Shown here: one piece after another, positions 3,001 to 56,700 of the stretch
How positions within the stretch are numbered: position 1 is the first letter of the stretch
How the letters are laid out: the number at the start of each line of letters is the position of its first letter
Source of the DNA: Tomocerus qinae
Taxonomy: Eukaryota; Arthropoda; Collembola; Entomobryomorpha; Tomoceridae
Reading direction: 5' to 3'
Length of the DNA stretch: 64,000 nucleotides
Assembly: GCA_020055645.1 (NCBI GenBank)
Contig: CM034549.1
Location: forward strand, 29,347,930 to 29,411,929
Made by a program: the position numbers and the translations under genes
The notes under the pieces: model-generated
The model's database searches: none
What the model was told of the DNA's origin: nothing
What the model saw: only the letters and a program-made list of their open reading frames with translations

Positions 3001-6000
3001 GTGAAATAGGTATTAGGTACTACTGGAGTACATAATCATAATTATTGCATAATTATGTAGGTACTTATACGTAGATTTACCATGTAATTTCATTATACTA
3101 GTTTTCTATAAAATATGTTATCTGTCTAATCATATGTAATTAATACAGAAGCTACCTTAATGAAAATACTGAAGGACAGGTAGACAGAAAGCCCATTATT
3201 AATGTAGTTATCAAGGAGCCAGCCAGGGAGCTACCAAAAAATGAAGCAAAATATTTCAACCATTAGATTATTACGGTACTCTTTCCCACAACATTTTAAT
3301 TGCTTCTTTTGTACATAAAAACAACATTGTACAAAGTACATGCAAGCAATAACAATTTACAGTACCAATACGCACAGATATTCATACTCCACACTCTGTT
3401 AACTGTCTCGCCTGACTTGAGACAAATAGGGTGTAGGAATGATTTTACTGCTAGCAAAATGCAGAGGGGAAGAAATTCCTGCAGATAAGGTCATAAAAAG
3501 TAGAAGAAAGCTTAAAAAAGGAGAAGGATGACATAATGCAGACTAACAATTAATAGGAGCTTAGCCTACTCTCGTGAAATGAATCCAGCCATGGAGTTGA
3601 GATCATCTCTCCGTCGTCATCTGGCTGGAAAAGGACTTTGAGAGAGAGAGCTAATAAACAAAACACAAACCTGATCTTTTTAACTTGATACGTAGATAAT
3701 GAATTGAAAAAATGATATTAAAACAATTTGTCTTTTTCCTTGAATGCATTTGGTGGGTACGCATGACAATTCGTTGTAAGTAAAGGAAAAGAAGATTCAT
3801 GTGGTCGCCAAAAGAATGGTTTCAGCTATTTAACTAACTTGGGGACCTTACCTAAATAAGTTTAGCATCTGCATGTGAGATCTTTGTCAGATGTATTCAG
3901 ATAAGGTACGACGAACGTGACCAATAAGGAAACAGAGCATAATATATCTTGGGAAACTGTCTCTTTGGACTTAAGGAATCTTTTATGAGACTCCTTCATA
4001 TACTTACTTACTTATGGGATGAATAGGCTGAGGAAGTTGAGTCAAGAGCAGGGACTATTGCTGATCACAGATTGGCCGATTCTGGTTCAGTTCAGTTTAG
4101 AGATTCTCTAATGCAATTGAATGCAGAATGTACTCTGTAACATGATAAGGAAATATCTAATGCCAAGCCACGCTACGCCACATGAATCACGACGATTAAT
4201 TTAAGGTCTTCTTTCTTGCCTTCATTTTTACTTTATGCATCTGCTATCTCGGCAATAAATCCATTTTATTATTGTACTCAGAAGTTACTTACTAATAGTC
4301 TCGTTATGTCATACTCGCATACATTAAAAACAACGTTTATAATTCCCTGCACTCTAAACCGTAGACGTCTAGTAATTAACTTCTTTTTTAAACTATTGCA
4401 TAATAACTTACAAAACTTGCCACAACACTTACATGGCTACTTTCATATAAACATTCTAGCAATAATAGTAAAAAGAATAATAAAAAACTTTTATTACGTC
4501 TAAAAATATGTACAAACTGTTAGGCCACAAGGATATAATTATTTTGTATCAATCTCTATTGTAAGATGTAGTAAGATGTAGGATATAGGATACTTGATTT
4601 ATTACATTTTGTGTAGAGCACTGGCATAACTTCTTTCTAATAGCTTCGCTCCTTACATATTCTAAAGAATCATTTCATTTGACCTAAATCTGATTACTAC
4701 TTTGGTTGTAGTAAATCAAGAAATCAAGTATTAATTATAAGATCAAGATCCAGTCAACTCCTCTAACTTTACATTCTTTCATAGATTAGATTTAGTAATC
4801 TAAAGTAGCGCAGTCGTAAAGTTTTGTGCAATATAATAATAACAAGAGTCATATAATAATAATATGCTAGTGACTTTATCTGTAACTGCCAGTGAACTGT
4901 GAGTAGTTAGTGAGCTGAACTCTAGCCTGAATAAAGATGAGATTATCCAAAAATGGCCTGTCAAATCAAAGGATGAAGTAAATCTTCCGAAATAAATCGT
5001 TTCATGTTGTGGAGGTGCGCAGCGTAGATTTATAATACCGACAGCACAGGGTTATCACAATTTAAACATACATCCCAGATGAGAGACCACGCAAGAAAAG
5101 CATAGCAAATTAGCAAAGACGCCGAAATCCAAGCCAAGAAGACAGAAACATTCTATTTATTTCCACACAGCACGGATCATTGATGCTGCAATGCGTTTAC
5201 AACTTAACCAGACCTCCTCTCCTCGTGTCGAAAATTGATTTTCCTTGTACTCTACTTACCAACAGACTTATCAGGGCATACTTACTTTGTTTTTACATCT
5301 ATTACATGTAGCATTTACTTATTTACTCATCGTCGAGTTTGACTTTGTGAGAACAACTTTTTAGCATACACTAAAATTGATAACTCGATAACAGCTTGTT
5401 TGTAAACTCATTACATGTATAAATATGAATTCTGATATTAATGTTCACATACACCTGTGGAGAATTTTATGTAGACATCGTATGTAGGTGCGCCGTAAAA
5501 TTAGATTAGAATACTATTGGGATTAGGTAAAGATTAATTTGATTTAACTATAAAAGACACATGCATCCAAAGAATTTACTCTAATTTTAAATTTCATCAC
5601 GATAACGTGCAGGGCAAGTGCCATTTTTTGTATGCTGATAAAATATTAAATGAACACTATGCAAGCAAATGATCTCACAATCAAGATGTGAATAGTAAAC
5701 ATTTTCATATTTTATTAATTCAAACTTTATAGTCTAAGTGACTTTTTCTTCCCTTGACAAAAACTATCTTTTAATAGTTTCACTTAAAGCACTAACTTAA
5801 CAATAGTAAGATGAAATAATATTTTATAGACACTAGTAATAATTTGATGCGCCGAGATGAATTTCAGGAGCATAAGTTTTTAAAAAAAGTAGTTTAGTAT
5901 AATCAAATAGCTACTGCATGTATAGCCAATAACTTTTTACATTGGATGCGTGAGAATGACCTGGGGTTATGACACTAAATTCTTTAGTGATGATCTCCGT

Positions 6001-6779: not shown

Positions 6780-9700
6780 TCATTTTTGGTAATAATCACC
6801 GCCAGACTGTCCCTGTTGATTTTGGTTCTGGTTTCGTCTGTTCTTCCAATCTGGTCTATTGAACTGACGTCCTTTTCCACCAGGCCCTAATGTTCCAGGA
6901 CCTCCTTGGATCTTGGTTTCAAAGTTTCTGTCACTTGTTTCACGGAGAATGTTCACCTAAAGTAAAGAAATCTTTATTTACACCTAATCGTAACAAAAAC
7001 TCTTCATACAGAAGCTCAGACGCTACAGACATAAATCTCCTATTCTATTCACGGAAGTAAATATTTGAATTATCTGTGGATTTACCTTATCTGATAACTG
7101 GAGGAGCATTGATTGAAGGCGGCTGGGTTCTGTTCTATGAAGAACGACTGTTTTGCTAGGTTCGTCCATGGAAGCCTGGGAAATACAAACAAACTTAAAA
7201 TCTTCGAAAGATCTTGTACGTTTGATCTTTGATGGTTAAACCCAATTAAATTGTTTAAATGATTTACTATATTATAGCGTTTAAAAAAGTACCATAAGCT
7301 CCTGGTTGATAATCATTTTTGCCACAACTGAGTGAACTTGTCTATATTCCATCCCATACATTTCTGCTAATCTTGGCAATGAGATTGAGTCATAAACATT
7401 TGAGTACGTAAACAAATACGTCCGCAGACTCTCTTCACTTATTTTCCTCTTAAGCATTTCTTTCACTCCGAATCTATAATTAAAATTACAGTTAGTTAGC
7501 ATAAACAGTATAAATAGTTTTCTCATATATTTTTTCAGCATAAAATAAGTCAGGCACTTACTTTTTCTCATTTTGGGTGTACTCGTAAATAGCGAAGTAA
7601 TGCCACACTTTTCGATCCATCTTTTCATTAACCAAAGAATTGTAACACTTTTGCCAGTCTCCTTTCTTCATTGCTCTTGCAGCTGCTACGACATGCTCTC
7701 TCATTGATTCAGCAGGACCCGTTAAGCTTTGTTTCTCCAAAGTTCGCAGTTGATGGTAAAACGTTTTAGAAATGGGTCTTCTTTTAGCATCGAATTCATG
7801 TTCGGCGATGTAAGGGACTTCCATCAACATTGCGGATGCCAGATAGACGCATTCAATGACATCTAAATTTAATTGCATATGGAAGGGTACCTAAACACCA
7901 AAAAATATAAGAGTAAATTAATTTGTTCTTCCTAGTCTCATTTAATCATTTTTATTTTTGACATTACTTGTCGACTTCTTTCAATCTTTTCTTGTTCTGG
8001 GGATCTGTCATGCCGATGCTGAGGCATCAGACCTTGAGCCAACAATTCTTTCACACGACCACTCATCATTAAATCAGCAAGGGCATTATGAGCTTCAAGA
8101 ATTGATTCGTGACGGAATGCACAAATGCCCAACTGGACCATTGCACGATTGTACATAATCTAAATGCAAATAAATGAAAAACATTAAAGAACAATGGATA
8201 CATCAGGATAAATTGCTAAAGATAAATGCTATTATGTTAAAATTGAAATGTGAACTTTTTTTGCAGCGGATTATCGCATTTTTAGCCATAATCCGGGATC
8301 GTAAAGATCAAATTTACTATTGCACCCTTTTCTTTACCACCAACCTTGAAATAATTGGCAATACTGCGTAAGTGCATGTAATAAGAAAAATAATAACGAA
8401 ATAAGAAAATTTATTATAATTACTTGAGTAGGAGGATCTGAGTGATGAATAACTTCCTGAAGATGTGACATTAATAGCAAGTCCCGGGCTTCGAACCAAT
8501 TGTCATGCATTGCATGATGGTAGATGTGACACAATATTGCTCTTGTCCGCAGTCGATCCGTTGTATCTTTAACGTACACAAAACCGGCAAGACGTTGCAA
8601 TTCATCAACACTCGTCTCTCCCTTATACTCTCCCTATATTAAGTTTGGCATTAGATTATGAATACGATGGTTCTCTAGATAACTACCTAAGTAGAATCAA
8701 CTATAACTGATATTTACAATTTTAAGTAACGTTAAAAATGTAAGCTTATCTAAAGAGGATTTTTGAATCTATTTCAACAATCCAGTAGATAAATAATGCT
8801 AAATTTACTATTGCACTCTTTTCTTTACCACCAACCTTGAAATAATTGGCGATACTGCATAAGTGCATAATTTTACAAAACAAGACGAATATGATTAGTA
8901 TAAAGTCAGAAAATTACCCTTTTCTTTTTTAAAACACGAACGTCAAACTTGTAATACATGTGTTCAATCTTTTTAAAATACGCCCGACACATAATGCCCT
9001 TATCTTCAGCTAAGTGTGTACTTTCTAAATAGGAGATCAGACGATCCAACATGTCACATATTTTTTTCTCATCTTGAACTCTTTCAACATATTCAAATGA
9101 GTGCGAATCCAGTTCCTATTCAAAATAACAAAAAGTTACAAACAGTGACCCATAATGTAATGCTAAGTTTAGAATTTAATCTATACCTTTAAGACTTTCA
9201 AAAATTCTTCATCTAATCTCTCGAAAATAGTCATTAGACAACCTCTGACTCGGTACGGTGTCTTTTCCAATTCTTCGCCGTCTTCTGCAACATCTTCATC
9301 AATCTAGAACAATTAACAAAATTAAATGTAATTCAATTCAAATTCACTTCCAAAATATACCAGTAATTGCTTCCGATTTAATCAACCTTGGAGGGAAAGA
9401 TGGAAAGTTATCTGATTACATACCTTTAAAGTGTCTTTGGAAGTCGTAGCGATCCCGAGCATTTCATTAACCTTTTCTATCAATTTAATCCAATACTGAA
9501 CCTTTTGTATTTCGTGAACTTTCAAACTGTAATCAAAGATAGCGGCGACGAGAGAAAAGCCGATTTTAACTTGCACCGCAGGTCCCAAGTTGTGAGAATT
9601 AGCTATAGCTTCAAGTTCCACGAGTAATTCAATTTGTTCACGTCTATCAGTTCCCTGCAAAATGCAATTCATTATTTTTCAATGAACGTAGCAATATTAT

Positions 9701-13984: not shown

Positions 13985-14313
13985 CTGTATTACTCAATTC
14001 GCAACGCAACCTCTTATTCTGAAAGGTTCCAATGTACGGTATCAGAGGTACACGCTGTACCTGCCTACTTCGTCCGCGACGTAACCTCTTATTTTGAAGG
14101 TTTTCCATGCACGGTATCGGCGGTACAAGCAGTACTTGCCTACTTTGTCCGCGACGTAACCTCTTCTTTTGAAAGGTTCCGATGCACGGCATTAGCGGTA
14201 CAAGCTGTACCTGCCTACTCCGTCCGCCATGTAACCTCTTATTCTGAAAGGTTCTGATGTACTGTATCAGCGGTGCAAGCAGTACCTTCCTACTCCGTCT
14301 GCCACGTTACCTC
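13985..14313. repeat. 75-bp minisatellite, about 4 copies
   Basis: Copies begin at 14001, 14076, 14151, 14226 and 14301 (the last truncated), each opening with a variant of GCGACGTAACCTCTT. The period is 75 bp, a multiple of three, so long open frames appear on both strands. Copies differ at scattered sites without an obvious excess of third-position changes, and no start, splice or homology supports a protein. It lies between the fold-back element and PTRHD1. Confidence 0.85.
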
Positions 14314-14559
14314 TCATCTCATATATTAATATAATAATATGCTTACATTCATGATACTTTCCAATTCCGACTTCGACCAGGTCGCACCTTTGCTCGGCAA
14401 AGGCTTTGTTCTGTTGTGTGTATCTGAGGAATAGGCAAGTCTAAACTAAGCGCTGGATGTCAAAATATTATGTAACCACCGGTGTCAATCGATGCGGCTC
14501 ATTCAAAGTCTTATTGTGGCTTCTATGGCTCGTCCCATTTTTTGAATTGCATCAAAATT

Positions 14560-53700: not shown

Positions 53701-56700
53701 TGAATATACTGGAAAAATGGTACAGAACAAACTGTAGTAGTCTAGTTATAAATGGTCACGTTTCAGTTTGAGTAGCCCACAGATATTTGTATACGTATTT
53801 ATTTACTGTAGCATATGCAATGGGGTTTTAGTCGTAAATAGAAGTTCTTTGCTGGAGTGAATATATAGATAAGAATAGACCAGCATGGCTTGACTCTATT
53901 AACCCCTTTAACCATTATGACCGACATGTTTTGTTTCGTAGACTTTAATTTGAAAATCCATCCTGCCATTGCATTGCTCTCTTACTTGCCCACCAGGCAA
54001 CTCACGACTAGTGTATTAATACAAAGGAAAGTTTTCCTCTTTTGATTACACAACCATTGTTTTAATATATTATGCAGACACGTCCCATACTGACTACACC
54101 ATTATCCTATACATACAATTTATATACACGTGCCCTATATAATACCTACCCTGAAATGGACTTACAAATACTATTAGGATCCAGCACTTTAGGATTTCCG
54201 TTGAATTTAGAATATTACTTTTATGTCATAACTAACTAACCATGCATCATACTTAGTTAGGTAAAGTAACTTCAAAACTATAGCTAGCATGTAAATTTCC
54301 CATTGCACTCTCCTCGTTTCAGAACTATTTAGTTTTAAATGTAGAGGTTCTCCACGGGTGATCGACTAACTTTGCAATCAATACTAGCACACAATTCTTC
54401 CCTCAGACAAATTCAAAATGAAATGAATTTACCTATCTCACCTAACAAAGATAAATTGCCACACGATCATAAACATTCTGCATTTTGCAATGCTAACCCC
54501 AAAACCTAGAAAGTAGAAACAAATACATGCAAAAGGGAATCTTTTTAATTAATTTTCATTTCACATTGCCACCCAAGGTTTTCTCAAAGAAAATATTACT
54601 CCTATCATCAACTCATAATTAGATTTCTTGGGAAATTTTTAAATGCTAAAGTAAATCCGACAGATTAATCTCTAAGATTCACACTTACTTTTATTATTTA
54701 CTCATGGAGAAAGTAAACTTTCACTTTAACGATGGCGTACTCAGTTTTAGCACTTAGTTAGATTACTCAGTGAACTTAAAATGGAATTAAAGTGTTTATC
54801 GTATGCAATCTTCCTCAAGTGTTATAGCATTGACAAGTTTTACACACCTGTAATAAAACAGCGTGCCAGCCTACGTCATCAAGGTTTTAAGTGACCACAA
54901 GTATGACAAATAAACTTTCCGACAGAATATTACACAAACCTCAACGCTGGTATCAAAATTAAATTAAAGTTGAAACTTGTATAGAGCTATAAATAAATGT
55001 TTGTCAAGAGTGTACAAAGTTATGAGAGGTCGTCCATTAAACTATTTTTACTCATTTGCATAGCAATTAATTCCCACAATTAGCAATAGCTACCTACTTA
55101 TGGTGCCTTTTAGCATTTCAATGATTATGTAGGTACCACTAAAAGATTATAAATAGTAGCAAACAATCGATTTTTCTTTCATTCAAACATTAGTAGATAT
55201 TTTTGTATAGACCTCAAGGATAGTACTTATGAAACTGGATCCAGGAATTTTCACATCTAAAGTTTTACATCCTGGGGTAGTGAAGTTTTACAACCAGCCA
55301 CCGCAGTTTTACAACCAGCCACTGCAGTTTTACAACCACACACTGCAGTTTTACAACTACACACTGCAGTTTTACAACCAGCCACTGCAGTTATACATCC
55401 ACAAACGGCAGTTTTACAACCTTACAAATGTAATGAACTCAAAGTTTGGTAAAATCTAAATAAATGCTTAATAATTATATTAAGACGAAGTGATATGGCT
55501 ATGTTGCTGAAAGGTTGTTTAATTCATTTAAAGTAAAGAAAACAGTCAATGAAAGAGGTTAAACATGGTCAATGTCAAATGAGGATAAGCAATATGTAAA
55601 CGTTAACTCAATCTTATAATTTACGACGTTTTATGTTTTCTTTCTCCGATTTTAGCCTGACTCTTTAGCTGGGGCCATTTCACTAGTTGTTGAATTTGTT
55701 GCTGGGAATTTCTTTTTTCCTTTGCTTTTGTGGTGATTTTTTAGCAAATGAGCAATTGAGCGGCAGTAAATTGCGATGTCCACTGTGTTGTATGTTGCCA
55801 TATGGTTTTTTTCAACCTATCATCTATGTCTACGTATACTGGATGCAGACGCTTTCCATTGATGAGAGTCATTCAGTATTAAATTTTGACGCCAGTAAGT
55901 TGCTTCATTTCTCAAGTGGCCCATAAACTTCCAAAATGTGGGATGATAACAACGAAATCTTGCCTTCAAAGAGTTGTGATAGCCCTCTAAACTCTTAGCT
56001 AAACCATGTTTATAATCCTTCACATGACAATAAACGAAACCACGGAAAGCTAACTTATCTTTTCCTTTTCCTCTTACTGATTTTACAAAACTAGCCATTC
56101 TGCTTTTACAAAACTGCTACCGCTTGCATCAAATGTCTAAACTGTACTGCACTTCAGTTCCGTTTTCTCTTCTACAAGTTTACATTCATTGTATGTAAAC
56201 ACAATCATAATCTCTACCTACCTTTTACATTTGAATGGAGCATTTGCCATAATGCACCATTCCTTCGGCTATTAACCAAACTTCGTCTTAACGTAATTAT
56301 TAAGCATTTATTTAGGTTTTACCAAACTTTGAGATCATTACATTTGTAAGGTTGTAAAACTGCCGTTTGTGGATGTATAACTGCAGTGGCTGGTTGTATA
56401 ACTGCAGTGGCTGGTTGTAAAACTGCAGTGTGTGGTTGTAAAACTGCAGTGGCTGGTTGTAAAACTGCGGTGGCTGGTTGTAAAACTTCACTACCCCAGG
56501 ATGTAAAACTTTAGATGTGAAAATTCCCAATACCTATGAAACTATTTGTACCTGATGAGTGATGACCTACAATTAGGTTAAGGCTATAATTATAAAGTGT
56601 ACTAATACATAAATAGACAGATAAATCAATAGGAGAAAGTGAAGGAATAAACTTTTCCCAAATGAAATGAAGTTTTCTGCTCGGCTGGTTTTAATAGTGA

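Follow-up and report, generated by a model that had tools for sequence, protein, structure and literature searches.

Paired candidate box H/ACA snoRNAs in adjacent eIF3c introns of Tomocerus qinae, with a predicted common target in 28S rRNA

We have analyzed a 64,000-nucleotide stretch of Tomocerus qinae DNA (the window, to which all coordinates refer), contained in an assembly of 334 Mb and 115 contigs. The minus-strand gene at the locus is eIF3c, as the original prediction had proposed: the hand-joined exon translations matched eIF3 subunit C chains from the PDB, with a best E value of 7.4e-99. Two adjacent introns of this gene, both with GT/AG ends, each contain a candidate snoRNA, designated here as copy A and copy B. 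The intron numbers 7 and 8 are those of the original prediction, counted from an assumed gene 5' end. The features are as follows.

8634..8917, minus strand: eIF3c host intron of copy A ("intron 7"), 284 nt, GTAATTTT...AATATAG; splice sites read from the sequence, flanking exons within the eIF3c match
8736..8867, minus strand: copy A, candidate box H/ACA snoRNA, 132 nt (from fold, scanner and sequence layout)
8812..8867, minus strand: copy A first hairpin, guide strands AUGCAG (8855-8860) and AAGAAAA (8819-8825) (fold and sequence)
8806..8811, minus strand: copy A H box AUAGUA, fitting ANANNA (sequence)
8743..8800, minus strand: copy A second hairpin (fold and sequence)
8736..8741, minus strand: copy A ACA box plus three 3' bases, ACAUUU (sequence)
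8160..8423, minus strand: eIF3c host intron of copy B ("intron 8"), 264 nt, GTAATTAT...TTTAG; splice sites read from the sequence
8246..8376, minus strand: copy B, candidate box H/ACA snoRNA, 131 nt (from fold and sequence layout)
8321..8376, minus strand: copy B first hairpin, guide strands ACGCAG (8364-8369) and AAGAAAA (8328-8334) (fold and sequence)
8315..8320, minus strand: copy B H box AUAGUA, fitting ANANNA (sequence)
8252..8309, minus strand: copy B second hairpin, with a marginal lower stem (fold and sequence)
8246..8251, minus strand: copy B ACA box plus three 3' bases, ACAUUU (sequence)

The proposed layout of a hairpin, an AUAGUA hinge, a second hairpin and an ACA three bases from the end, in 131- to 132-nt segments of adjacent introns, was thus found at 8736-8867 and 8246-8376. 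Both copies could adopt the hairpin-hinge-hairpin-tail fold, copy B marginally so in its second hairpin, with an H box of the ANANNA type in the hinge and ACAUUU at the position expected for the 3' end (the RNA 3' ends being predicted here). In H/ACA RNAs, 14-16 nt separate the pocket from the H or ACA box; the spacing was 14 nt in both first hairpins and 15 nt in both second hairpins.

The folds were compared with dinucleotide shuffles. Copy A (folded as 8738-8868, two 3' bases short) gave a z-score of -3.57, with none of the 200 shuffles as good, and copy B (folded as 8246-8377) a z-score of -2.75, with 1/200 as good. The second hairpin of copy B was the minimum-energy fold (-17.0) if the first ACA base was allowed to pair. 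With the ACA kept free and lonely pairs excluded, it reached -14.7, as against -16.5 for an alternative containing a small GAUC hairpin, a disadvantage of 1.8 kcal/mol. We have also run a home-made two-hairpin H/ACA scanner on both strands of the window. Its first version returned zero candidates since lonely pairs closed the pocket, and it was then modified. Copy A ranked first among the six candidates of the modified version (-33.6, the next being -24.0), and copy B was absent from these six. The best of seven shuffled windows scored -32.5, so that fold energy alone is modest and not decisive evidence; as a proof in itself it was dropped, given that shuffled windows score nearly as well.

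The two copies are most alike in their 5' halves. A 68-nt block, spanning the first hairpin and the H box AUAGUA with a few bases beyond, was 96% identical between 8310-8377 and 8801-8868, with three differences, which agrees with the three changes originally described for the first hairpin and H box. One difference falls in the pocket, one in the upper stem (U-G vs. C-G) and one in the lower stem (U-G vs. U-A). In a search of the 334-Mb own genome, made with a tool that passes over very frequent words and restricts scoring to the top candidates, the block was found at two places only, both in the eIF3c introns described here, and the second hairpin of copy A at one place. Within the reach of this search, we have therefore rejected a dispersed transposon fragment, the outcome that the original prediction had itself named as contrary to it. 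In the viral contigs searched, a 23-nt core had no exact match, which is in line with this rejection.

The near-identity had been read as a sign of selection on a shared pseudouridylation target. The three changes do preserve pairing, yet 59% of random transition triples would do so too. We have therefore rejected the inference of selection from these changes as not significant, and selection on the block is no more than a candidate explanation, since the block would look just as alike after gene conversion or a recent partial copy.

Directly 3' of the H box, the identity between the copies drops sharply. The second hairpins had been called unrelated in sequence yet both able to fold; the folding held, marginally for copy B, and the lack of relationship did not. 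With the ACAUUU end removed, their global alignment score was 7, as compared with a shuffle mean of -16.9 (18/5000 shuffles as good) and a mean of -18.9 for random pieces of the window (14/5000 as good). The local alignment was weaker, with 165/5000 as good. A GGAUU...AAUCC pairing stands at the base of the upper stem in both. The second hairpins thus look like diverged relatives, and this residual similarity suggests that the whole RNA was probably duplicated and that its 3' half then diverged. The GGAUU...AAUCC stem base could instead have been kept by a constraint on the fold.

No known H/ACA family could be assigned, since an Rfam search of the window gave zero matches at the gathering score. 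The best H/ACA match to Rfam was weak: TtnuHACA18 against copy A (8736-8865), with 21.2 bits against a gathering score of 100 and an E value of 1.5. A known Rfam snoRNA was accordingly discarded as the identity of the pair.

The guide pockets were then matched against the rRNA of the same species, as the original prediction had suggested. We have located the rDNA of the genome with an 18S query and retrieved two units; in one locus (L017), Rfam marks the 18S, the 5.8S and part of the 28S. The rRNA scanned comprised 1810 nt of 18S, 152 nt of 5.8S and the first ~2455 nt of 28S, L017 reading N beyond position 5180. Pockets were scored by our own scheme (GC 3, AU 2, GU 0.8, with at most one mismatch in each arm).

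The first pocket of copy A paired through 7 + 6 Watson-Crick pairs with GUUUUCUU-UU-CUGCAUG of the own 28S, at ~U1994 as counted from an estimated 28S start, the predicted target uridine lying in the context GUUUUCUU[U]UCUGCAUG. This site scored 35.8 and the next best site on L017 scored 12.2. The score was reached by none of 292 shuffled rRNA sets (maximum 28.0) and by none of 2000 pseudo-pockets sampled within the window, and the best score on antisense rRNA was 17. Copy B scored 30.8 at the same site (next best, 14.4), with one A.C mismatch in the guide and 7 + 4 contiguous Watson-Crick pairs still adjoining the target UU. Its score was reached by 0/292 shuffled rRNA sets (maximum 27.6) and by 1/2000 pseudo-pockets, with an antisense best of 15.8. 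Both first hairpins thus present bipartite complementarity around an unpaired U-N, and the 28S site was identical in the two rDNA units read. Within the 18S, the 5.8S and the ~2455 nt of 28S scanned, the first pocket therefore matches ~U1994 above chance. A 28S match far exceeding two controls, together with a block present at only two places, strongly supported the proposal that copies A and B are paralogous H/ACA snoRNAs with a shared, predicted pseudouridylation target.

By manual counting along the alignment, the 28S site corresponds to about position 1697 of the LSU model and falls within a region that is conserved among eukaryotes. Its 3' arm reads CUGCAU here vs. CUucuU in the eukaryotic consensus, and this departure indicates that the guide fits the 28S variant of its own genome. 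In agreement with this, the shared pocket had no convincing target among other eukaryotic rRNA fragments of unsettled origin (viral contigs, genome-bin contigs and an 18S from a plasmid record), as far as these were scanned, in part, at loci L005, L007, L009, L010, L011 and L012.

A new target had also been proposed for the second pocket, and this was not borne out in the scanned rRNA. The best site for copy B was 18S U636 (GUAG-UU-GGAUC, 4 + 5 pairs), with a score of 21.8 that 54/292 shuffles reached; in an alternative register its best was 18.6 (206/292). For copy A, the best site was 18S U799, with a score of 19.2 (145/292). All three were within chance, and 324/2000 pseudo-pockets reached 21.8 and 787/2000 reached 19.2. 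Hence, no second-pocket target rose above chance in the 18S, the 5.8S or the first ~2455 nt of the 28S. The stretch around 18S U636 carries pseudouridines in other animals, which we take as a lead only. Against L007, the second pocket of copy A formed 4 + 6 pairs near position 41 with a score of 23, in a region whose alignment to the LSU model is of low confidence.

We consider it highly probable (roughly 90%) that the locus encodes two intronic box H/ACA snoRNAs derived from one another by duplication into a neighboring eIF3c intron and whose first hairpins would guide modification of the same 28S uridine. Most likely, the pair is an ordinary intragenic duplication of an H/ACA snoRNA, an arrangement of a known type. 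One snoRNA would have been duplicated into the adjacent intron and, after splicing, each RNA would be released from its intron by trimming and would assemble with the H/ACA core proteins dyskerin, NHP2, NOP10 and GAR1. Both first hairpins would then direct pseudouridylation of one 28S uridine, GUUUUCUU-[Psi]U-CUGCAUG, at ~U1994. The second hairpins would have diverged while retaining the ACA box and a fold of the H/ACA type, and, with their pockets relaxed or changed, they may have separate targets or none.

The same features could be arranged differently. Copy A may be a working snoRNA and copy B a decaying duplicate, the block being alike through recent copying or gene conversion. The A.C mismatch in the guide of copy B, its marginal second hairpin and its absence from the scanner candidates are what such decay would produce; against this, copy B has kept the 7 + 4 contiguous Watson-Crick pairs beside the UU, the H box and the ACA box. 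Moreover, a recent copy of the whole intron is difficult to reconcile with upstream flanks that show no similarity (1336/2000 shuffles as good) and downstream flanks that show little (206/2000). We regard decay of copy B as less likely than not, and its mismatch may reflect either tolerance or early decay. It is less probable still that hairpins were shuffled between two older snoRNAs, partial duplication or gene conversion having brought just the first hairpin with its hinge beside a pre-existing, independent 3' hairpin. The sharp drop of identity just past the H box fits such an event, and the residual similarity of the second hairpins (18/5000 shuffles) argues against it, although a shared constraint on the fold could contribute to that similarity.

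Very improbable, in turn, is a repeat or piece of a transposon that has no function and folds by chance. A two-copy intronic repeat needs no function per se, and the fold energy was nearly equalled in one of the seven shuffled windows, but this reading has to contend with the confinement of the block to two places of the genome, both in eIF3c introns, with the complete H/ACA anatomy and with a 28S match above the controls. Returning to the duplicated pair with a common target, we would extend it only tentatively, and with more doubt than attaches to decay of copy B, to a 28S pseudouridine with a lineage-peculiar 3' flank guided redundantly by twin RNAs, copy B being part-way to a new guide specificity. 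If so, copy B, with its single guide mismatch and diverged second pocket, would represent a change of specificity caught under way.

Both the host and the layout have precedents. In chicken (PMC2653536), snoRNA paralogues arise in adjacent introns by intragenic duplication, often with the guide regions kept, and substitutions are said to create or destroy guiding functions in some cases; about 90% of the H/ACA snoRNAs are singletons, with lengths near 130 nt. The pair described here is similar in placing paralogues in neighboring introns of one host gene and in its ~130-nt H/ACA length. It differs from that mostly singleton repertoire (PMC2653536) in being a pair, 96% identical in the 5' half and strongly diverged in the 3' half, and it is known from sequence alone. 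In the Drosophila mfl (Nop60B) gene (PMC1821038), small RNAs occur singly in successive introns as tandem copies. Among them are snm60 a/b (introns 10 and 11), which are 85% identical overall and share an inner segment of 59 bp without a difference; this gene also hosts the H/ACA snoRNA H1. The T. qinae pair shares with that cluster (PMC1821038) the one-RNA-per-intron arrangement in copies; the duplicated mfl RNAs are there given as box C/D or of a class not known, whereas the candidates here are of the H/ACA type. For Drosophila as a whole, a preprint (PMC13228274) reports 138 annotated box H/ACA snoRNAs with a mean of 143 nt, 95% of expressed snoRNAs in host-gene introns, and similar snoRNA isoforms that do not necessarily direct methylation at one and the same site. 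The intronic location agrees with that repertoire (PMC13228274); sequences were compared through Rfam only, with no match at the gathering score. None of the titles listed in our literature searches, a part of the total, concerned snoRNAs in eIF3c introns.

The pair thus extends a known pattern and opens no new one, the predicted target being unusually clean. With a single genome as its source, a guide pair that Rfam does not recognize could be given a specific rRNA target open to testing, and it offers a clear small case in which one half of a two-pocket guide appears fixed and the other drifting.

The searches also returned observations on rRNA genes. The 18S query gave at least 24 matches in the own genome covering bases 1 to 1178 of its 1201, and at least six further partial ones, scattered over five contigs and mostly megabases apart; the rDNA looks dispersed and not confined to one array. 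Six contigs in bacterial genome bins (L004-L009) carried eukaryotic 28S rRNA, three of them also 18S, and were probably mis-binned. A 1764-bp "plasmid" record (L011, NZ_CP050525.1) matched eukaryotic 18S rRNA over its full length, and its end is what we take to be sequencing-adapter sequence; it is probably a contaminant. The same probably applies to a 2736-bp "plasmid" record (L012, NZ_CP082873.1), in which a 5S rRNA gene accompanies the start of an 18S of eukaryotic type.

Elsewhere in the window, a 75-bp tandem unit, its length a multiple of three, was repeated 4.2 times at 14000-14314 with 82% matches. Two arrays of 21-bp units, with 6.6 copies each, lay ~1 kb apart at 55284-55421 and 56350-56487, their consensus units being near reverse complements.
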